Both the position numbers and the translations under genes were made by a program. Positions 1-7,677 of a stretch of DNA of 7,850 bases are shown here, one piece after another. The DNA is from Actinomycetota bacterium (GTDB lineage Bacteria > Actinomycetota > Actinomycetes > Nanopelagicales > Nanopelagicaceae): positions 1-7,850 of the forward strand of contig CANHRF010000047.1 in NCBI GenBank assembly GCA_947463335.1, in the 5' to 3' direction. Position 1 is the stretch's first letter. Each line of letters starts with the position of its first letter. Under the pieces are notes generated by a model, which saw only the letters and a list, made by a program, of their open reading frames with translations, was not told the origin of the DNA and ran no database searches.

Positions 1-1696
1 CGCCGCCAGAAGCAACGTTTTGCGCACCGCCTCCACCTCCACCAACAACCAAAAAGTCAATTGCAGTCGCTGATTCTGGAAGCGTGTATGCGCAAGGAGT
101 AGTTCTAGTGATAGTAAGAATTTGATTTCCACCTGCATAGTTAGTCACTGGCGCACAGGTCGCAATCCATTCTGCAAAAAGTGTGGTGTTTCCAGTGGCG
201 GTAATAGTTTCACCTGGTAAATAACGAGTGCCTCCACCAGCCAAAAGAGTATTCCAGCCGACAAAGGTAAATCCAGTTTTTACAAGATTTCCTGTATTTC
301 CAGGGATGGTTGGAGAAGCAAATTCATTTGTTGTTATCGTTGAAGGTACTGAACCTGTTGTTGGGGTATTTCCGTTGAATTGAATATTCAAATTCCACAT
401 TGCGTGTAACGTTCTTGTCCCCGTTGCTGTGTATGTCTCTCCAGGTAGGAAAGAAGTTCCACTTCTATTGGCGGCGGTATTCCAACCAGCGAATGTGAAG
501 TTTGCTCGCAAGAGAGTTGTTGGGGATGGAAGAAAATACGTTTGGTTAGCCGAACCCGTCATGCTGCGCACAGCCGGAATAGTTCCTGCCGCAGATGTAT
601 TTCCGTTTCCGCTATAGGTAATCGTGGAATTCCACTGGGCATATAGCGTGATGTCTCCGGGTGAGGCAAAAGTCGTCAGCCCTGCTGAAAAGTTCGTTCC
701 TGCTCCATCTGCCCTCGTATTCCACCCTCCAAAGGTGTAACCGTCTCGCGCGAGCGATCCTGAATTTGTGGCCAGCGTTGTAACTGCGTTCGAAGTGCGA
801 GCAAGGGTTGGCGCTGGCACAGAACCAGATGTCGCTGAGTTAGTGTCATAAGTGATCGTGGAATTCCATTGCGCAAAAAGCGAGAGCGATGCAGTCATAT
901 TCGACTGCACATCACCATCTTGATACAAAGTGCCTGTTCCATTTGCATTGGTATTCCAACCAGCCAAACGATAGCCCGGACGATTTCCTGCATAACCAAC
1001 TACAGTTAAATCTTGATTTGGAGTGCTTTGTGTAACCGTAGATGGAACTGCACCAACACCATTATTTGCGTTATATGAGATTGAAAACTTTACATAAGGT
1101 GCACACCTTGCCCCGTGAGAATCAAGCCATATATTCCAGGTGTATCTGATTCCGACCATAAGGTCGCCAGCATTACAAAGACTATTTGTTGTCGTTTGCG
1201 TAGTTCTCGTAATTCGGGGAGTACCTGACTGCGAAGCAATATACTGAGTCTCTGTACCTGCATCGTTTACGAGTGGTGGGGTTTTGCAGACTAGTCCCGC
1301 TCTTAAACCGGAGGATGAAAAATACCTTGTACCGACTGCGGCCATGCCATCTGGGCAAAAAACATAATTTGCTGTGTTGCGAGTTGTCGCGCTGAGGGCG
1401 GCAATTGTGTAGTCATCTAGAAGCGGCGCGCATATTCTTCCTACTGCCATCGGATTTTGGTTAAAGGTGATTCCAACAACAACTTGACCTGCTGGACAAT
1501 CTGCAGCTGCAGAATTTGTCCCGCCACCAAAAAAATATTCAGGTGCGTTATAGATCGTTCCGAAAGAAGCGGCTTGACTTGGAGGCGCTGATATCGTCAC
1601 TCCCACAGGCAAAGAAACAAATAAGCCGGAAAATAGGGCATAAACCGTCCAACGGGAAATCTGGCTGCGCGTAGGCAACTTCGACCTGTACCCCAT
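1..1696 (-). CDS. Large secreted InlB-type repeat protein, N-terminal part (C-terminus beyond left edge)
   Basis: One frame stays open from ATG at 1696 to the edge (565 codons), so the gene is partial only at its C-terminus. The start is supported by an AAGAGGT Shine-Dalgarno 8 nt upstream. Residues 1-42 form a Sec signal peptide: basic n-region (R4, K6, R10, R15), hydrophobic core about 17-36, and S-Q-A cleavage site near 40-42. Residues 67-198 hold six cysteines as three C...C modules. Residues 204-510 hold four repeats of about 75 residues, each ending in hydrophobic-x-[QME]-W and carrying a central GWNT motif (F/L-x-GWNT), as in InlB B-repeat/Listeria-Bacteroides (Flg_new-type) domains. 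From about 548 a VVGGGGGG stretch opens a Gly-rich domain that continues outside. The protein is probably extracellular or cell-surface, perhaps adhesive or ligand-binding; its function is unknown. It lies downstream of the sugar operon on the same strand but seems to have its own promoter. Confidence 0.85.
   Translation of the reverse strand, partial: MGYRSKLPTRSQISRWTVYALFSGLFVSLPVGVTISAPPSQAASFGTIYNAPEYFFGGGTNSAAADCPAGQVVVGITFNQNPMAVGRICAPLLDDYTIAALSATTRNTANYVFCPDGMAAVGTRYFSSSGLRAGLVCKTPPLVNDAGTETQYIASQSGTPRITRTTQTTTNSLCNAGDLMVGIRYTWNIWLDSHGARCAPYVKFSISYNANNGVGAVPSTVTQSTPNQDLTVVGYAGNRPGYRLAGWNTNANGTGTLYQDGDVQSNMTASLSLFAQWNSTITYDTNSATSGSVPAPTLARTSNAVTTLATNSGSLARDGYTFGGWNTRADGAGTNFSAGLTTFASPGDITLYAQWNSTITYSGNGNTSAAGTIPAVRSMTGSANQTYFLPSPTTLLRANFTFAGWNTAANRSGTSFLPGETYTATGTRTLHAMWNLNIQFNGNTPTTGSVPSTITTNEFASPTIPGNTGNLVKTGFTFVGWNTLLAGGGTRYLPGETITATGNTTLFAEWIATCAPVTNYAGGNQILTITRTTPCAYTLPESATAIDFLVVGGGGGGAQNVASGG
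167..1087 (-). repeat. Four tandem InlB/Listeria-Bacteroides-type protein repeats
   Basis: The four copies are residues 204-277, 278-355, 356-434 and 435-510 of the secreted protein (about 866-1087, 632-865, 395-631 and 167-394). Each starts with a beta-strand of the I-x-[YF]-[DSN]-x-N type, contains GS/GT-[VI]-P, then a GWNT core, then a closing strand ending LFAQW, LYAQW, LHAMW or LFAEW. DNA identity between copies is modest; the longest shared stretch I noticed is ATCGTGGAATTCCA, at 621-634 and 854-867. This suggests old, diverged duplications rather than recent slippage. Confidence 0.8.
1103..1498 (-). repeat. Three degenerate Cys-pair modules in the secreted protein
   Basis: Cysteines at residues 67/89, 114/137 and 174/198 form three pairs with nearly constant internal spacing (22, 23 and 24 residues). 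The first Cys of each is followed by x-x-G and then V-G-[IT]-[TR] (CPAGQVVVGIT, CPDGMAAVGTR, CNAGDLMVGIR). The second sits in a C-x-P context in copies 1 and 3 (CAP), with CKTP in copy 2. I infer one disulfide per module. I do not recognise a named domain with certainty. Confidence 0.6.
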
Positions 1697-1867: not shown

Positions 1868-1902
1868 AAAACCCTTATAAATCAATACATTTAAAGAGTT
1901 TT
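1868..1902 (-). terminator. AU-rich terminator-like hairpin at end of sugar operon
   Basis: Arms 1868-1882 and 1889-1902 pair as a 14-bp stem with one bulge (1877), one G-U pair (1873/1897) and a 6-nt loop. In the transcript the 5' arm begins with an A-run at the isomerase stop codon and the 3' arm ends GGGUUUU. The position directly at the end of the last operon gene fits an intrinsic terminator. The stem is AU-rich and the U-run short, so strength is uncertain. Confidence 0.45.
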
Positions 1903-2894
1903 TATCTAGTAAATCGTTTCTCTTGCATAATCGCGTCCCAAATAACTGCTTGTGCAGCAAGTGCATCTTGTGAGTTCTGCGCTTGGTTAAGAGCGCTGAT
2001 ATCAATTCGATCGCAGACTTCTTCAAGGTAGGTAATGATTTCAATGCTACGAGTAAGTGCCCGCACTGGATCTTCGCGGAACGGGAATTGATCAAGTAAC
2101 ACTGGATCCGTCCAATTAATACTGCGAAGTGCCAACATATATTCGATAGTTTCAAATAAGTGCACTGATGCAACAGGAAGATCATCATCCCAACCGCGCC
2201 AGTTATCGTTTAGCTCAGCGCTAACTAACTTGCCGTGGCGATGAATTAACAGAAGTGATTCCGCAGGTGTTTCTTGCGCCATCAGTGAATGACCAAAGTC
2301 CATCACGATTCCGACGTTATCAACCTTCATTTCACTAATCGCTAGAAGAGTTTTGGCTGCAGTTGCAAGAGTCATGCGAACACGTGGCTCTTTGCACTTA
2401 TATTCAATTGCGAACTGCACCTTTGGATTTTCATTTGCCAAATCACGGATTCCGTTGATGGTGTAATCCCAGATCTGTAAATAATTTGCCTGCAGCGGGA
2501 AATCAAAACCATCTTGACCTGGCCAGAACTTTACATATGTTGCACCCAAGATCTCCGCAGCGGCGATTGCTTCACGCACGCGATCTTTAGTTTGAGAGCG
2601 AAGCTTGGTATCCGGGTTTGTAAAGGAGCCTTTTACATACTCGCGCATATAAATATGTGGAGTTGTAGCGCGGCATACCAGTCCGTTGTCATCAAGCATC
2701 TTCTTGATCTCAACTGCTGTGCGCTCTGGAATATCAAATGGCACATTGATATCTAAGTGCTTAAGGCCGGGAACTTTGGCGGCATCTTCAATCATCTGTT
2801 GGCTAGTGCGAGTTGGTCCGTAACCATCTCCGGCATAACGGTCAACGAATTGGCCAAATGCCCAGATACCTGCGCCGTAAGTTAGTTTTCCCAT
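1902..2894 (-). CDS. Xylose-isomerase-like TIM-barrel sugar isomerase (candidate D-apiose isomerase)
   Basis: A 330-residue cytosolic protein of the AP-endonuclease-2/xylose-isomerase-like barrel superfamily, predicted to interconvert an aldose and a ketose with a divalent metal. Visible active-site elements are H80 in TTPH, the WPGQDG loop at 124-129 (compare WGGREG of xylose isomerase), E164 and K166 in IEYK, D199 and H202 in MDFGH, the Asp cluster D236-D238 after LNDNW, and D268 in LLDQFPFRED. These follow the order of the two metal sites of xylose isomerase, but the chain is shorter than XylA (about 390-440 residues). The start has AGAAGG 5 nt upstream. It is the last gene of the operon, 63 nt after the kinase. 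With the kinase and split transketolase, D-apiose to D-apulose is the best substrate guess; an L-rhamnose-isomerase-like or epimerase activity is possible. Confidence 0.85.
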   Translation of the reverse strand: MGKLTYGAGIWAFGQFVDRYAGDGYGPTRTSQQMIEDAAKVPGLKHLDINVPFDIPERTAVEIKKMLDDNGLVCRATTPHIYMREYVKGSFTNPDTKLRSQTKDRVREAIAAAEILGATYVKFWPGQDGFDFPLQANYLQIWDYTINGIRDLANENPKVQFAIEYKCKEPRVRMTLATAAKTLLAISEMKVDNVGIVMDFGHSLMAQETPAESLLLIHRHGKLVSAELNDNWRGWDDDLPVASVHLFETIEYMLALRSINWTDPVLLDQFPFREDPVRALTRSIEIITYLEEVCDRIDISALNQAQNSQDALAAQAVIWDAIMQEKRFTR

Positions 2895-2957
2895 TTCAGC
2901 CTTCTCTCTCTTCTTATCTTGAAATCTTACGAGTTTAAATCGTTGATGGATAGCCCT
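2895..2957 (-). promoter_or_regulatory. Intergenic leader before the isomerase with SD and imperfect palindrome
   Basis: This 63-nt gap is the only sizeable break in the operon. It holds a purine-rich run ending in AGAAGG (2900-2905), 5 nt from the isomerase ATG. It also holds an imperfect inverted repeat, ACGA-g-TTT/AAATCGT, at 2929-2943 (7 bp with one extra base). I see no convincing terminator, and only a poor promoter candidate (TAAGAT with no -35). Co-transcription with an independent ribosome site is most likely. Confidence 0.4.
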
Positions 2958-4379
2958 TTATTGGGTTTTCAAGCGCGATGCGGCCAGCGCTTTACGCCAG
3001 CTTTTTAGCTTTTCTTGCCGTTCTGGCTCACTTGCCTGAGGCAGATATTCATCATACTTAAGTTCGATATTTTCAATCTCTGCAATCGTTGCAATACCTG
3101 CGCCGAGCGCAGCAACCATTGCTACACCAAAGGCCGATAACTCCAATAACTGTGAAGATCTGATTTTCTTACCGCTTAGATCTGCGAGCATCTGCATCAG
3201 ATATTTGTTACGTGCACCGCCGCCATCTGCGTATAAAGATGTAATTTGAATATTTGATTTAGCAAAATCTTCTAGGACATCATTTATCTGGGCCGCTGTT
3301 GATCGCAGCGCTGCAGCGGCTAGATCAGCTCTGCTTGAACCGCGGGTAATTCCAGCGATTATTGCTGTGGCCTCACGATCCCACCAAGGTGCACCTAACC
3401 CGTTAAAGGCAGGAACAATTTCTACTTGTTGCTTTGATTCAGGGGCTAACTTGGCCAATTCATCAGGAGTTGTTTCAAGTAACTCAGCCAACCAAACCAA
3501 GGTAGATCCCGTCGAAAGAATATTTGCTTCAGCAGCCCGAGTTATCTCTCCATTTATTTGCCAAGCAATTGTCTGCGGTTTACTTTCCGTTAAACCCATA
3601 AGTGAGGTTCCGGTACCAAAAGTGGCTTTAAAGTTGCCGGCCTTCCAGCCTTGATGTGCAAACAGGGCGGCATGTGAATCGCCCATAATTCCTGAAAGTG
3701 GAACCTCGTTAGTTAAACCAAGTTGATCCATATTTGTGCAGATATGTTTTTCGTCAGATGCGCACACACGAGGTAGTTGCAATTTATCTATGTTAAAGAT
3801 TGCCAGCAGCTCAGGGCTCCACTGACCGCTCTGAATATCTAAGAGTTGTGTGCGGCTAGCGCTACCTGCTTCAACTATATGTCCTGCGCCAAGTTTGAAA
3901 GCAATCCAAGAATCAATTGTTCCAATACAGATATCAGCGCCGCCAAAGTCGTTATTTTCAAAGAGCCATTGCGCTTTAAGGGCCGAGAACATTGGATCTA
4001 ATTCAAGACCGCTGATCTCCTTTACCTTTGCTGCGCTTTCCCGCTGTTTTTCAGCTAAATCCGATGCTCTGCGATCCTGCCAAGTAATTACATTAGTCAG
4101 GGCTTTTCCACTTTTTCGATCCCAAAGAAGAACAGATTCGCGTTGAATGCTAAGCCCGACAGCAGAAATTTTATGGCTCTTTGTGATCTCTTTACTTGAT
4201 GTAACAACTGATTGCCAGATCTCTTCAGGGTCTTGCTCTACCCAACCAGTCTGCGGAAAGGTCGTAGAGATCTTTACCTCTGATTGTCCAAGTACCTGAT
4301 CTTTAACATCAATCGCAAGTGCCTTTGTAGATCCGCTACCTTGATCGATAGCTAAAACGATAGGCAGGCTATCTGCCAT
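2958..4379 (-). CDS. FGGY-family carbohydrate kinase, glycerol-kinase-like (candidate apulose kinase)
   Basis: A 473-residue cytosolic ATP-dependent sugar or polyol kinase, close to the usual FGGY length of about 500. The N-terminal FGGY domain (about 7-245) has the phosphate loop DQGSGSTK at 12-19, SIQRES at 77-82 and WQDRR at 100-104. The catalytic base is D234 in GDSHAALF. The C-terminal domain (about 250-470) has FGTGTS at 254-259, NGLGAPWWD at 326-334 and the adenine-side DGGGARN at 385-391. R80-E81 and the GLGAP block match glycerol kinase more than xylulokinase, which suggests a small substrate with a glycerol-like end. The start overlaps the transketolase C-half by 11 bp, implying translational coupling. 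In a D-apiose pathway it would phosphorylate D-apulose to apulose 4-phosphate; glycerol, erythrulose or another ketose cannot be excluded from sequence alone. Confidence 0.88.
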   Translation of the reverse strand: MADSLPIVLAIDQGSGSTKALAIDVKDQVLGQSEVKISTTFPQTGWVEQDPEEIWQSVVTSSKEITKSHKISAVGLSIQRESVLLWDRKSGKALTNVITWQDRRASDLAEKQRESAAKVKEISGLELDPMFSALKAQWLFENNDFGGADICIGTIDSWIAFKLGAGHIVEAGSASRTQLLDIQSGQWSPELLAIFNIDKLQLPRVCASDEKHICTNMDQLGLTNEVPLSGIMGDSHAALFAHQGWKAGNFKATFGTGTSLMGLTESKPQTIAWQINGEITRAAEANILSTGSTLVWLAELLETTPDELAKLAPESKQQVEIVPAFNGLGAPWWDREATAIIAGITRGSSRADLAAAALRSTAAQINDVLEDFAKSNIQITSLYADGGGARNKYLMQMLADLSGKKIRSSQLLELSAFGVAMVAALGAGIATIAEIENIELKYDEYLPQASEPERQEKLKSWRKALAASRLKTQ

Positions 4380-5322
4380 TTTTCAAAAGCTCTCGCGCTT
4401 GGGCAGCGATGGCATCAGCGGTTAATCCAAAGTGTTCCAATAGATAAGAAGCTGATCCTGTTGGAGCAAATGAATCAATGCCCATTAACTTCATTGGAAC
4501 CGGGTTGTTCTGCACGATAAATTCGGCGATCGCTCCGCCAACGCCGCCACGAGTGACAGATTCTTCAGCGGTGATGATCGCCTTAGTTTCATTTGCCGCT
4601 GCCAAAATTTCAGCGGTATCTAGAGGGGAAACTGTTGAAAGATTTATTACCCGAGCAGAGATTCCTGCGCTCTTTAAGATATGTGAAGCGGCAATCGCAC
4701 GCGAGACCAAAGTGCCGGTGGCGATAATTGAAATATCTTTACCGTCAATGATGCGCATCGCTTTATTTGGAATAAATGCTGGGTTTTGGCCTTCTGAAAC
4801 AGATGGAACTTTAAAGCGGCCGATGCGCATAAAGACTGGACCGGTTGTATTCGCGGCCCAACGAACTGCGCCTTCAGTCTGTGCTTCATCTGCTGGCAAG
4901 ACAATCGGAAGTGAATCAAGTGCGCGCATCCAAGCGATATCTTCAATTGAGTGGTGTGTTGGACCTAATTCTCCGTAGGAAATACCTGGGCTCATTCCGC
5001 AGAGCTTCACATTAGTATTTGTATAAACCACATCAGCCTTTATTTGTTCGAGCGCGCGTCCTGTTAAAAATGGCGAAGCCGCGCATACAAATGGCGTAAA
5101 TCCAGCGTTTGCTAGGCCCGCGGCGACGCCGACCATATTTTGTTCTGCGATTCCGACATCGATCAAACGATCAGGAAAGAGTTCGCGAAATTCAGTTAAA
5201 TTACTTGACCCGACCGAGTCGTTGCAGACAACAACAATTTTTGAATCTTCGTTAGCCAAGGCAATAAGGGTCTTGGCAAAAATGATGCGATTATCGAATT
5301 CTTCCAATTTATCTGCGCTCAT
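4369..5322 (-). CDS. Split transketolase, C-terminal subunit (Pyr and C-terminal domains)
   Basis: A 317-residue partner of the upstream 270-residue subunit; together they equal one transketolase. The pyrimidine-binding domain (about 8-175) carries the cofactor-activating Glu, E60, in GIAEQNM, and the GPTHHSIED segment at 120-128 typical of small transketolase-like halves. The C-terminal domain spans about 190-315, with IIATGT at 199-204 and the EE-x-x-x-RGGVGG turn at 253-263. ATG at 5322 overlaps the stop of the N-subunit as ATGA, so translation is coupled and near equal. It should form an alpha2-beta2 thiamine-diphosphate enzyme moving a two-carbon ketol unit. Sizes fit apulose-4-phosphate transketolase subunit B (AptB), where glyceraldehyde 3-phosphate is the acceptor and dihydroxyacetone phosphate is released. 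Family certain; substrate inferred. Confidence 0.9.
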   Translation of the reverse strand: MSADKLEEFDNRIIFAKTLIALANEDSKIVVVCNDSVGSSNLTEFRELFPDRLIDVGIAEQNMVGVAAGLANAGFTPFVCAASPFLTGRALEQIKADVVYTNTNVKLCGMSPGISYGELGPTHHSIEDIAWMRALDSLPIVLPADEAQTEGAVRWAANTTGPVFMRIGRFKVPSVSEGQNPAFIPNKAMRIIDGKDISIIATGTLVSRAIAASHILKSAGISARVINLSTVSPLDTAEILAAANETKAIITAEESVTRGGVGGAIAEFIVQNNPVPMKLMGIDSFAPTGSASYLLEHFGLTADAIAAQARELLKNGR

Positions 5323-6131
5323 TGTTTTCCGACCTGCAGCAGCGCTTCTTCATATTGTTCAGCGTTTGGAACTTTATGGTGCCACTCTGCTTTACCTTCC
5401 ATAAAGTCAACGCCTTTTCCTTTTATGGTTTGTGCAATGATCACTCGAGGTTTGGTCTGTGGATCGGTAAAAGCTTTGTATAGAGCCGTGTGATCGTGTC
5501 CATCCAGCACAACAACTTCCCACCCAAAAGATTCAAATTTCTTATCCAGTGGATCTAGCTCATTTGTCTTCGAAGTTGGGCTTCCTTGTTGGAAACCATT
5601 GCGATCAACGACTGCAATTAAATTAGTGAGTTTGCGGTGCCCGGCAAACATGGCCGCTTCCCAGTTGCTTCCTTCTTGCAATTCTCCATCGCCCATAATT
5701 ACAAATGATCGGCTACCGTTTTTCGCTAACTGCGCACCAATTGCTGTGCCGACTGCGATCGGAAAACCGTGTCCAAGAGGACCGGTGTTAGATTCGACTC
5801 CCGGAACTTTATTTCGGTTGGGATGTCCATTTAACTTACTTAAAGGTTGTGCAAATGTCTTTAGATCTTCGACTGGAAAGAAGCCGCGCAGAGCAAGAGT
5901 GGAATAGAGCGCAACAGCAGCGTGCCCTTTGCTGAGAATTAAGCGGTCGCGATTGGCCTTATTTGGATCTTTGGGATCAACTTTTAATACCGCGCCAAAG
6001 AGCGTCGCGAGAATATCTGTAACTGAAAAATCGCCACCGATGTGGCCCATACCCGCACCCTTTATGGTGTGGAGGATTTGTATGCGGATTTCTCGGGCTA
6101 AATCAGCAATTTCCCGCGTATTCATCGACAT
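5319..6131 (-). CDS. Split transketolase, N-terminal subunit (thiamine-diphosphate binding)
   Basis: A 270-residue PP-domain half of a two-gene transketolase. The thiamine-diphosphate/Mg motif is GDGELQEG at 147-154, closing at N178 in VDRNG. Transketolase His positions are visible at H30 (GHIGG), H70 (SKGH), H103 (NGHP) and H121 (TGPLGHG), with WHH at 250-252 near the end. It is complete for the family's split form (about 270-280). First gene of the operon. ATG at 6131 is used here; a second ATG at 6125 would lie 10 nt from a GAGG, so the true start may be six bases later. It overlaps the next gene by 4 bp. Best functional guess is subunit A of apulose-4-phosphate transketolase (AptA-like); a general pentose-phosphate role is less likely because a housekeeping actinobacterial transketolase is normally one long chain. 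Confidence 0.9.
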   Translation of the reverse strand: MSMNTREIADLAREIRIQILHTIKGAGMGHIGGDFSVTDILATLFGAVLKVDPKDPNKANRDRLILSKGHAAVALYSTLALRGFFPVEDLKTFAQPLSKLNGHPNRNKVPGVESNTGPLGHGFPIAVGTAIGAQLAKNGSRSFVIMGDGELQEGSNWEAAMFAGHRKLTNLIAVVDRNGFQQGSPTSKTNELDPLDKKFESFGWEVVVLDGHDHTALYKAFTDPQTKPRVIIAQTIKGKGVDFMEGKAEWHHKVPNAEQYEEALLQVGKQ

Positions 6132-6140
6132 AGTGCCTCA

Positions 6141-6168
6141 ACTCTATGCGTAATTACGCGTGCGTCAA
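6141..6168 (-). promoter_or_regulatory. Promoter of the sugar operon
   Basis: On the minus strand, TTGACG (6168-6163), a 16-nt spacer and TAGAGT (6146-6141) form a good -35/-10 pair. The -10 ends 9 nt before the ATG, so transcription should start within a few bases of the start codon, giving a leaderless or nearly leaderless mRNA. Confidence 0.55.
6148..6159. promoter_or_regulatory. Perfect 12-bp palindrome GCGTAATTACGC in the promoter spacer (probable operator)
   Basis: The palindrome lies entirely between the -35 and -10 boxes of the sugar operon promoter, the classical place for a repressor dimer to block RNA polymerase. A sugar-responsive repressor (LacI, GntR, DeoR or ROK type) is inferred; none is encoded in the window. 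Confidence 0.5.
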
Positions 6169-6219: not shown

Positions 6220-7677
6220 ATGAATGAGAAGGTTGAAACTCCGGAAGTAAAGAATGCGCGTCCATACGATGTTGCACCTCCTGCACAATATGCAGAATTT
6301 ATGCGCACTGGATGGGCGCCTTCCAATCTAGAAGGTTTACAACCACTTGAAGTAGTTACTTATGCATTCACTCGCCGCCAAGTTTTATCTGCAGCATTTC
6401 CAAATATTCGTCTAGTTATTCCTTCTGGAAATTTCAAAACTCGTTCAAATGACACTGAATATGCATTCCGCCCGCACAGCGCTTTTGCTTACTACAGTGG
6501 AGTGCAAGGATCTGATGCGGTTCCGGATTCAGTTTTGGTGATGGAACCAAATGAAGCTGGTGGACACGATTCTTATCTTTACTTACATCCGCGATCTACT
6601 CGCGAGACCGATGCTTTCTATACCGATCGTAAATATGGTGAACTCTGGGTCGGCCGACATTTCACTCTTGATGAGGCAAACTCGGTCTATCAAATCCCAA
6701 CGCGCGATGTAGATAAGATCGAAGATCTCCTGCGCTTTAGCAAAGAAACGTTGCTGGTTCGCGGTGAAGATGCGTTGATGGATAAATTGATTTCCAAGAA
6801 CGCGCGCGAGTCAGAATTCGTAACCTTTACATCAGAACAGCGCTTAGTTAAAGATGAGTATGAAGTGGCTCAATTACAAGCCGCTGTTGATGCGACTGGC
6901 CGTGGTTTTAGCGATGTAATCGCAGCCATGCCAGCAGCTGCTGAACATCCGCGTGGCGAGCGAATTGTGGAAGGTGCGTTCTTCGGTCGCGCCCGCCTAG
7001 AAGGAAATGACATTGGGTACACAACAATCGCCGCCGCAGGTGCGCATGCTTGTGTGCTCCACTGGATCCGTAACGATGGTGCGGTTCGCAATGGAGAGTT
7101 ATTGCTGCTCGATGCGGGCGTTGAAATGGATTCTTATTACACCGCAGATATAACTCGCACCTTTCCGGTCAATGGAAAGTTCACGCCTGCCCAACGTGCG
7201 CTTTATATGTTGGTCTACGAAGCACAACTCGCTGGCTTTGCTGCGCTAAAACCTGGTGTTCCATTCTTAGAAATTAATCGTGCGGCACAACGAGTATTCG
7301 CTGAAGGTTTAGTGAATATGGGAGTTTTAACAATCAGCGCAGAAGAATCAATGAAACCTGAAGTTGGTCTGCATCGCAGATGGACATTGCATGGAGTAAG
7401 CCATCACCTGGGGTTAGATGTTCACGACTGCGAGCATGCGCGTCAGGATATGTATCGCGAAGGTGTTTTGCGCGAAGGCATGGTTTTAACTGTCGAACCA
7501 GGACTTTATATTCAGCCAGATGATGAGCTCTTTGCGCCGGAGTATCGCGGAATCGGAATCCGTATCGAAGATGATGTGCTTGTAACTGCTGATGGATATA
7601 TCAATTTAAGCGAGTACATTCCGCGTCACCCCGATGCAATTGAAGAATGGATGAAAGCGGTCCAGCAAGCGCGATAA
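6220..7677 (+). CDS. pepP: Xaa-Pro aminopeptidase (aminopeptidase P, M24B)
   Basis: A 485-residue cytosolic metallopeptidase that removes the N-terminal residue from peptides with proline in position two. The N-terminal aminopeptidase-P domain covers about 40-180 (PHSAFAYYSGV near 85-95). The pita-bread M24 catalytic domain covers about 215-465. All five metal ligands are visible: D298 (LLLDAG), D310 (TADITRTF), H395 (HGVSHHLGLDVHD), E426 (LTVEPGLY) and E450 (GIRIED). The accessory residues H281, H391, H402 and R448 are also present, so the enzyme should be active. Its length suits actinobacterial PepP, somewhat longer than the E. coli enzyme (about 440). It is divergent from the sugar operon and probably functionally unrelated to it. 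The stop is 9 nt from the following ABC gene, so the two may share a transcript. Confidence 0.95.
   Translation: MNEKVETPEVKNARPYDVAPPAQYAEFMRTGWAPSNLEGLQPLEVVTYAFTRRQVLSAAFPNIRLVIPSGNFKTRSNDTEYAFRPHSAFAYYSGVQGSDAVPDSVLVMEPNEAGGHDSYLYLHPRSTRETDAFYTDRKYGELWVGRHFTLDEANSVYQIPTRDVDKIEDLLRFSKETLLVRGEDALMDKLISKNARESEFVTFTSEQRLVKDEYEVAQLQAAVDATGRGFSDVIAAMPAAAEHPRGERIVEGAFFGRARLEGNDIGYTTIAAAGAHACVLHWIRNDGAVRNGELLLLDAGVEMDSYYTADITRTFPVNGKFTPAQRALYMLVYEAQLAGFAALKPGVPFLEINRAAQRVFAEGLVNMGVLTISAEESMKPEVGLHRRWTLHGVSHHLGLDVHDCEHARQDMYREGVLREGMVLTVEPGLYIQPDDELFAPEYRGIGIRIEDDVLVTADGYINLSEYIPRHPDAIEEWMKAVQQAR

Follow-up and report, generated by a model that had tools for sequence, protein, structure and literature searches.

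A four-gene operon beside pepP

The window analysed here, a 7,850-nucleotide stretch of contig CANHRF010000047.1 from an actinobacterium of the Nanopelagicaceae (assembly GCA_947463335.1), carries on its minus strand a block of four genes (tkN-tkC-kinase-isomerase, positions 1902-6131; Table 1) that quite probably encodes the transketolase route for D-apiose, a branched sugar found in plant cell walls. A preliminary description of this DNA had proposed such an apiose operon, made up of four co-directional genes with a two-subunit transketolase of 270 and 317 residues; its coordinates, strand, and lengths are all confirmed, and the Pfam domains agree with the classes it assigned to the transketolase, the FGGY kinase, and the isomerase. 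The gene junctions consist of overlaps of 4 and 11 bases followed by a 63-base gap, which is consistent with a single transcription unit.

Table 1 Features of the window.
Feature	Position	Strand	Details
Split transketolase N-terminal subunit (tkN), AptA-like, binding thiamine diphosphate (ThDP); operon gene 1	5319..6131	-	270 aa; Pfam Transketolase_N, 169 bits
Split transketolase C-terminal subunit (tkC), AptB-like	4369..5322	-	317 aa; Pfam Transket_pyr and Transketolase_C
FGGY kinase, probable D-apulose kinase (AplK-like)	2958..4379	-	473 aa; Pfam FGGY_N and FGGY_C
TIM-barrel sugar isomerase, probable D-apiose isomerase (ApsI-like)	1902..2894	-	330 aa; Pfam AP_endonuc_2
Probable operon promoter, TTGACG-16-TAGAGT	6141..6168	-	Predicted; ends 9 bases upstream of the tkN start codon
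Xaa-Pro aminopeptidase-like M24 peptidase (pepP), divergent	6220..7677	+	Outside the pathway; marks a conserved site
Surface-type protein with Listeria-Bacteroides repeats, downstream of the operon	2-1696	-	Runs off the window edge

The window isomerase is 98-99% identical to that of ten other loci, including those of Candidatus Planktophila lacus (L001, genome G001) and IMCC26103 (L003, genome G002), and the order pepP / tkN-tkC-kinase-isomerase is retained at every one of them over the extent of each contig. Eight of these loci have all five genes, L019 has five, of which the isomerase is truncated where the contig stops, and L007, on a contig of 3.3 kb, has only the kinase and isomerase. 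On similarity, the window is assigned to the Candidatus Planktophila (acI) group. The Planktophila genomes that carry the locus are from freshwater and are 1.4-1.5 Mb in size. Distribution in the acI family is patchy, with the close form of the isomerase found in 5 of 151 genomes (in one of which it is an 85% identical fragment at the start of a contig), a 47% form in one other genome, and a 35% form in three. Two records of metagenome-assembled genomes titled Bifidobacterium breve (L002, L006) also hold the Planktophila locus, with a 98% identical isomerase and the same order beside pepP, and their titles look wrong.

For the window and eight of the loci (9 sequences, 36 pairs), the ratio of median nonsynonymous to median synonymous divergence (dN/dS) was 0.012 for the isomerase, 0.039 for tkN, 0.048 for tkC, 0.077 for the kinase, and 0.043 for pepP; with median dS of 1.05-1.69, near saturation, these ratios are rough. 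The ratios point to purifying selection on all four operon genes which, together with the conserved gene order, indicates that their grouping is not due to chance. The kinase is the fastest-changing of the five genes compared, and the isomerase has a dN/dS about six-fold below that of its neighbor, with synonymous sites near saturation in both. Recent transfer of the isomerase, suggested by its 98-99% identity compared with 80-88% for the kinase, was rejected because its median dS of 1.05 is near saturation, and the difference in identity instead reflects stronger constraint on the isomerase.

The promoter candidate matches the consensus at 9 of 12 positions, and its TTGAC element is invariant across the window and nine related loci, two of them near-identical. 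Promoter-like sites are rarer in the window than in shuffled sequences (6 vs 12.0). The position of the candidate, 9 bases before the ATG, suggests that the operon mRNA is leaderless or nearly leaderless. A search of the window for tRNA genes found none.

Isomerase, kinase, and transketolase subunits

The best match of the isomerase in the Protein Data Bank (PDB) is chain 3ktc (313 bits over residues 6-324, 45% identity), which is labelled as a xylose isomerase and which we take to be the Pectobacterium D-apiose isomerase ApsI. The next-best chain reaches only 55 bits. The enzyme misses the NCBIfam equivalog cut-offs for xylose isomerase (61 bits, cut-off 447) and rhamnose isomerase (78 bits, cut-off 531). 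The preliminary description had named clustering in a family characterized for another substrate as grounds against its reading; in its favor, the solved structure closest to the isomerase is 3ktc, and the xylose and rhamnose isomerases are a long way off.

A tree of 42 isomerase rows is divided mainly into two groups. Clade A (8 rows, support 89/93) contains 3ktc, two Pantoea sequences, Croceibacterium, two Rhizobium sequences, Streptomyces NBC_00184, and the second copy from Nonomuraea MG754425. Clade B (28 rows, support 90/90) contains the window and Planktophila isomerases, 13 database proteins, Nonomuraea, and Streptomyces, with the sequence from genome G059 at its base; support is 97/99 once G059 is left out. 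The motifs WPGQDG, EYK, EPR, DFGH, RxWDDD, and LDxFPxRE are invariant in 36 rows spanning both clades. A third group holds ribokinase-linked Agrobacterium and Roseibium relatives, a clostridial pair, and G122. The Agrobacterium and Roseibium isomerases are on plasmids (L041, L043), are 36-38% identical to the window isomerase, and are linked to a ribokinase, an RpiR regulator, and a sugar ATP-binding cassette (ABC) transporter.

The kinase had been described as glycerol-kinase-like, and this description stands for its FGGY fold and for its best PDB matches, which are glycerol kinases (about 286 bits), but by its sequence the enzyme is not a glycerol kinase (GlpK). It scores 380 bits against the NCBIfam glycerol kinase model TIGR01311 (cut-off 590) and 174 bits against the XylB model (cut-off 380), which places it outside the glycerol kinases and xylulokinases, the other-substrate families against which it was compared. 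The E. coli AplK (495 bits) and the kinase from G059 (434 bits) likewise fall under the GlpK cut-off, and five GlpKs of the compared genomes score 707-742 bits. Seven pocket sites were printed in an alignment that omitted loci L002, L004, L005, L007-L009, L011, and L019, and three of the sites separate the groups. At these three positions, which we take to be equivalent to GlpK Y136, Q247, and F271, all 16 aligned operon kinases, E. coli AplK included, have Met/Leu-Ser-Ser (Met-Ser-Ser in the window), compared with Tyr-Gln-Phe in all six GlpKs and both GlpK-like proteins. The Met/Leu-Ser-Ser motif recurs in clusters L117-L119, and pattern matching caught two of its three pieces in L120 and L121.

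In the kinase tree the window sequence belongs to a 13-row clade (support 99/99) with operon kinases from Nonomuraea, Streptomyces, and G059, and this clade mixes the partners of isomerase clades A and B. The GlpKs form a separate clade (100/99) that excludes the window kinase. Identity of the window kinase to the non-Planktophila members compared is 34-44%, with E. coli AplK at 34% (276 bits). Both P. lacus and IMCC26103 possess a separate true GlpK (707 and 713 bits) and a separate XylB (394 and 385 bits), and P. lacus possesses its own L-ribulokinase (804 bits, cut-off 583); therefore, those roles are already filled in these genomes.

The transketolase N-terminal subunit is 43% identical to AptA from E. 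coli SE15 (226 bits) and 53-64% identical to the actinobacterial and rhizobial operon members, while the C-terminal subunit is 38% identical to E. coli SE15 AptB (214 bits) and 54-61% identical to other operon members. A tree of N-terminal subunits sets the operon transketolases clearly apart from full-length housekeeping transketolases, and does not separate them from two other split transketolases (L104 and L105).

Related clusters, apiosidase-family proteins, and transporters

The D-apiose transketolase pathway (MetaCyc PWY-8089; Carter et al, 2018, as cited in PMC13001218) consists of ApsI, AplK, and AptA/AptB. The window has the same four enzyme classes, with a split transketolase, an AplK-type pocket, and a 3ktc-related isomerase. 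It differs in that the Planktophila isomerase belongs to a clade apart from 3ktc, and in having no linked ABC transporter, DUF2291 protein, or SorC-type regulator. A linked sugar ABC transporter and regulator are usual, though not universal, in this pathway, and none is adjacent in Planktophila.

The apiose cluster of E. coli SE15 (ECSF_RS02670-RS02715) was compared directly with the window. As described in the same paper, this cluster includes aplK, aptA, and aptB without apsI, the Pectobacterium cluster adds apsI, and the carriers grow on D-apiose, whereas E. coli K-12 MG1655 fails to grow on it (PMC13001218). The E. coli AplK, AptA, and AptB are homologs of the window proteins at 34-43% identity. 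Unlike the window, the E. coli cluster has no isomerase, and it has two short-chain dehydrogenase/reductase (SDR) oxidoreductases and its own ABC transporter. Plasmids of Rhizobium sp. SL42 and CC-CFT758 (L039, L040) have a contiguous isomerase-tkN-tkC-kinase set, the same genes as in the window. Again unlike the window, these genes adjoin an E. coli-like transporter of RbsB type with a DUF2291 protein, and they have a DeoR regulator and a clade A isomerase. In two Streptomycetaceae genomes (G308 and G369; L117, L118), an isomerase, a DUF2291-like protein, an ATPase, a permease, a substrate-binding protein (SBP), two regulators, an apiosidase, a kinase, and AptAB all fall within 13 kb. The kinase and AptAB of these clusters are 37-60% identical to those of the window, with the same pocket motif, and the SBP is 64-65% identical to the Rhizobium one. 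In contrast to the window, they include the apiosidase, transporter, and regulators, and their isomerase is 47-48% identical to that of the window and 85-87% identical to one from clade A.

Within the sample from the acI family, G059 has a cluster (L057, G059:C22:20000-38000) with a kinase, isomerase, SorC-type regulator, AptAB, triose-phosphate isomerase, RpiB, dihydroxyacetone kinase, and Zn-dehydrogenase. The RbsB-type transporter of this cluster is 46-51% identical to those from the E. coli or Rhizobium clusters.

Three actinobacterial operons are found among genes for glycoside hydrolase (GH) families and related proteins. In Streptomyces NBC_00184 the order isomerase-tkN-tkC-kinase-regulator is flanked by a pectinesterase, a beta-L-arabinofuranosidase-type protein, GH28, and GH95. 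The clade B operon of Streptomyces MP131-18 is located among GH29, two GH78, GH2, GH127, GH28, a BNR protein, and an apiosidase-family protein. The clade B operon of Nonomuraea MG754425 occurs with a GH141-type protein, GH106, and a pectinesterase, and an apiosidase-family protein and BNR protein are found 17 kb on. The preliminary description had suggested duckweed apiogalacturonan or apiose glycosides as possible sources of the sugar. From the roles that we presume for these hydrolase families, the contexts in Streptomyces and Nonomuraea point to pectin and are probably loci for rhamnogalacturonan II.

Co-occurrence of the isomerase with the apiosidase family PF13204 was counted in samples from the families of G004 (Streptomycetaceae, 297 genomes) and G003 (Streptosporangiaceae, 150 genomes), accepting isomerases at E values up to 1e-60 and PF13204 matches above 26.5 bits, with p values that ignore kinship among genomes. 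In Streptomycetaceae, 4 of 297 genomes have the isomerase and 10 have PF13204, with all four isomerase genomes having both (p = 7e-7, or 2e-5 without the discovery genome G004). In Streptosporangiaceae the corresponding numbers are 9 and 8 of 150, with both in four of the nine isomerase genomes (p = 4e-4, or 0.003 without G003). The two genes are on one contig, 5-27 kb apart, in six of the eight genomes that have both (G003, G004, G253, G308, G369, and G391); the isomerase contig of another, G156, is only 7.6 kb long. Judged by identity, isomerases of the window's clade (64-66%) are present in 3 of the 13 isomerase genomes (G003, G004, and G156), and those in the remaining genomes, as well as the second copy in G003, are 45-48% identical to the window isomerase. 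The PF13204 match is strong in only two of the eight co-occurring proteins (G308 and G369; 230-239 bits).

The preliminary description had seen neither a transporter nor a hydrolase in the window, and in Planktophila likewise no ABC transporter, hydrolase, or regulator was found adjoining the operon. The search of related genomes for a sugar ABC transporter that it proposed gave the apiose-type ABC transporters of G308, G369, Rhizobium, and G059, but none linked to the operon in Planktophila. An RbsB-type SBP is encoded 12-14 kb from the operon in all four genomes with the close isomerase form, and in G144 one directly follows a fragment of the isomerase. This SBP belongs to a cluster (L054:1612-10617 in P. 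lacus; L056 in G144) with a permease, an ATPase, a GMC-type oxidoreductase, and a protein weakly similar to the inositol enzyme IolE (167 bits, cut-off 290). It was rejected as an apiose-specific importer because of these last two neighbors and because its aligned parts are 24-32% identical to apiose SBPs, which are 41-49% identical among themselves. In G144 its neighbors also include a weakly IolG-like protein (203 bits, cut-off 355) and a protein of the thiamine pyrophosphate (TPP)-enzyme family. A 593-residue protein of the same cluster was rejected as a D-apionate lactonase and not used, as it scores only 78 bits against ApnL (cut-off 750) and has no Pfam match.

Apiose and alternative substrates

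Gene content, homology, synteny, selection, pocket residues, and the co-occurrence with apiosidase-family proteins in relatives all support the apiose pathway as the function of the operon. In the proposed route, for which the reaction scheme reportedly goes back to Carter and colleagues in 2018, the isomerase would convert D-apiose to D-apulose and the FGGY kinase would convert D-apulose to apulose 4-phosphate. The two-subunit transketolase would then transfer a two-carbon unit to glyceraldehyde 3-phosphate; the products, xylulose 5-phosphate and dihydroxyacetone phosphate, would enter the pentose phosphate pathway and glycolysis. The probable apiose function put forward in the preliminary description is well supported by these comparisons, and most of the checks that it proposed come out in its favor, with related operons found alongside pectin hydrolases, proteins of the apiosidase family, or an ABC transporter of the apiose type.

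Several observations weigh against this function. The window isomerase falls outside the clade of 3ktc, and the tree does not settle how clade A, clade B, and the third group join. The Pantoea and Croceibacterium isomerases of clade A have other neighbors, and the stretches examined contain neither a kinase nor a transketolase; the second Nonomuraea MG754425 isomerase likewise has neither in the 6 kb examined. The 16 operon kinases jointly receive support of only 39/45, with E. coli AplK and the Rhizobium kinases not placed firmly, and the N-subunit tree has no single operon clade, although one clade is not rejected (p-AU 0.243). Phylogenetic placement, as envisaged in the preliminary description, sets the window proteins apart from GlpK and housekeeping transketolases but does not fix where E. 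coli AplK and AptA stand relative to them. Six of the eight co-occurring PF13204 proteins are weak matches (52-69 bits), including all three that accompany clade B isomerases (56-65 bits); five strong PF13204 proteins are in genomes without the isomerase (G294, G332, G405, G480, and G574); and five of the nine Streptosporangiaceae isomerase genomes have no PF13204 match. In G217 the two genes are on different contigs, with the isomerase contig extending at least 51 kb to each side. None of five acI-family genomes (G001, G002, G032, G077, and G059) has a PF13204 apiosidase match. Four of these genomes (G001, G002, G032, and G077) encode three Peripla_BP_4 SBPs each, and of the eight of these 12 that were compared with apiose SBPs, five match weakly (25-32%) and three (L051-L053) do not match.

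Two side observations concern the clade A isomerases. The second Nonomuraea isomerase (L028, L062; G003:C194), 47% identical to that of the window, is beside a short apiose-SBP-like piece (49% identity over 67 residues). The Pantoea isomerases, encoded on plasmids (L036, L038), are 83-85% identical to 3ktc, and the annotation of the 19 kb examined lists neither a kinase nor a transketolase.

The main alternative is that the operon carries out this type of chemistry on a different pentose or tetrose, itself branched or rare, with the substrate of clade B differing from that of the apiose clade. The identity of only 43-48% between the window isomerase and clade A fits this possibility, as do the divergence of the kinase from its non-Planktophila relatives and its rapid change, and the lack of an apiosidase or apiose-type SBP in the Planktophila genomes tested. 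The weakness of the apiosidase-family proteins that accompany clade B also agrees with it, and the presence of isomerases from both clades in Nonomuraea MG754425, one from each, would allow for more than one substrate. However, the clade B operons of Nonomuraea and Streptomyces belong to loci of pectin type, in which an apiosidase-family gene is found at a distance of 17 and 27 kb, respectively, the kinase pocket residues are of the AplK kind, and a single well-supported kinase clade serves both isomerase clades, so that we consider a different substrate unlikely. Ordinary use of xylose or glycerol, in which the isomerase would act on xylose, the kinase on xylulose or glycerol, and the transketolase would be a spare copy, is far less probable: the glycerol kinase PDB matches and the xylose-isomerase-like Pfam family of the isomerase are fold-level labels, both enzymes score far below the xylose isomerase, rhamnose isomerase, GlpK, and XylB cut-offs, the kinase pocket differs, and P. 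lacus and IMCC26103 encode true GlpK and XylB elsewhere. That the cluster is decaying or passing horizontally through Planktophila with no present function, as its patchiness and lack of a linked transporter might suggest, is hardly credible given the intact genes at the loci that span it, the fixed site beside pepP, the purifying selection on the four genes, and the conserved promoter element.

The apiose pathway is already known in other bacteria; what is new is its probable presence in this lake lineage, where it is patchy and has neither the customary transporter nor a cutting enzyme close by. In a search of open-licence articles in PMC, apiose was not mentioned together with Planktophila, Nanopelagic*, or acI. 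As the Planktophila genomes tested have no apiosidase, linked hydrolase, or recognizable apiose transporter, these bacteria would depend on free apiose that other microbes set free from plants, and would take it up by some other importer. Some acI actinobacteria, which are small-genomed and abundant in lakes, could have kept a complete apiose pathway without a hydrolase or canonical importer and live in part on free dissolved apiose that is taken up by a new or broad importer after other organisms open rhamnogalacturonan II, a proposal for which we see the chances as evenly balanced. Clusters of this kind carry gene names such as xylose or L-rhamnose isomerase, TIM barrel protein, and FGGY kinase, and the Met/Leu-Ser-Ser motif together with the co-occurrence of isomerase and apiosidase offers a means of recognizing apiose clusters under these vague or misleading names. 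If some acI bacteria do use apiose, a sugar of plant walls would be tied to the flow of carbon in open water, and if they obtain it by scavenging, apiose would make a genuine contribution to the sugars dissolved in freshwater.

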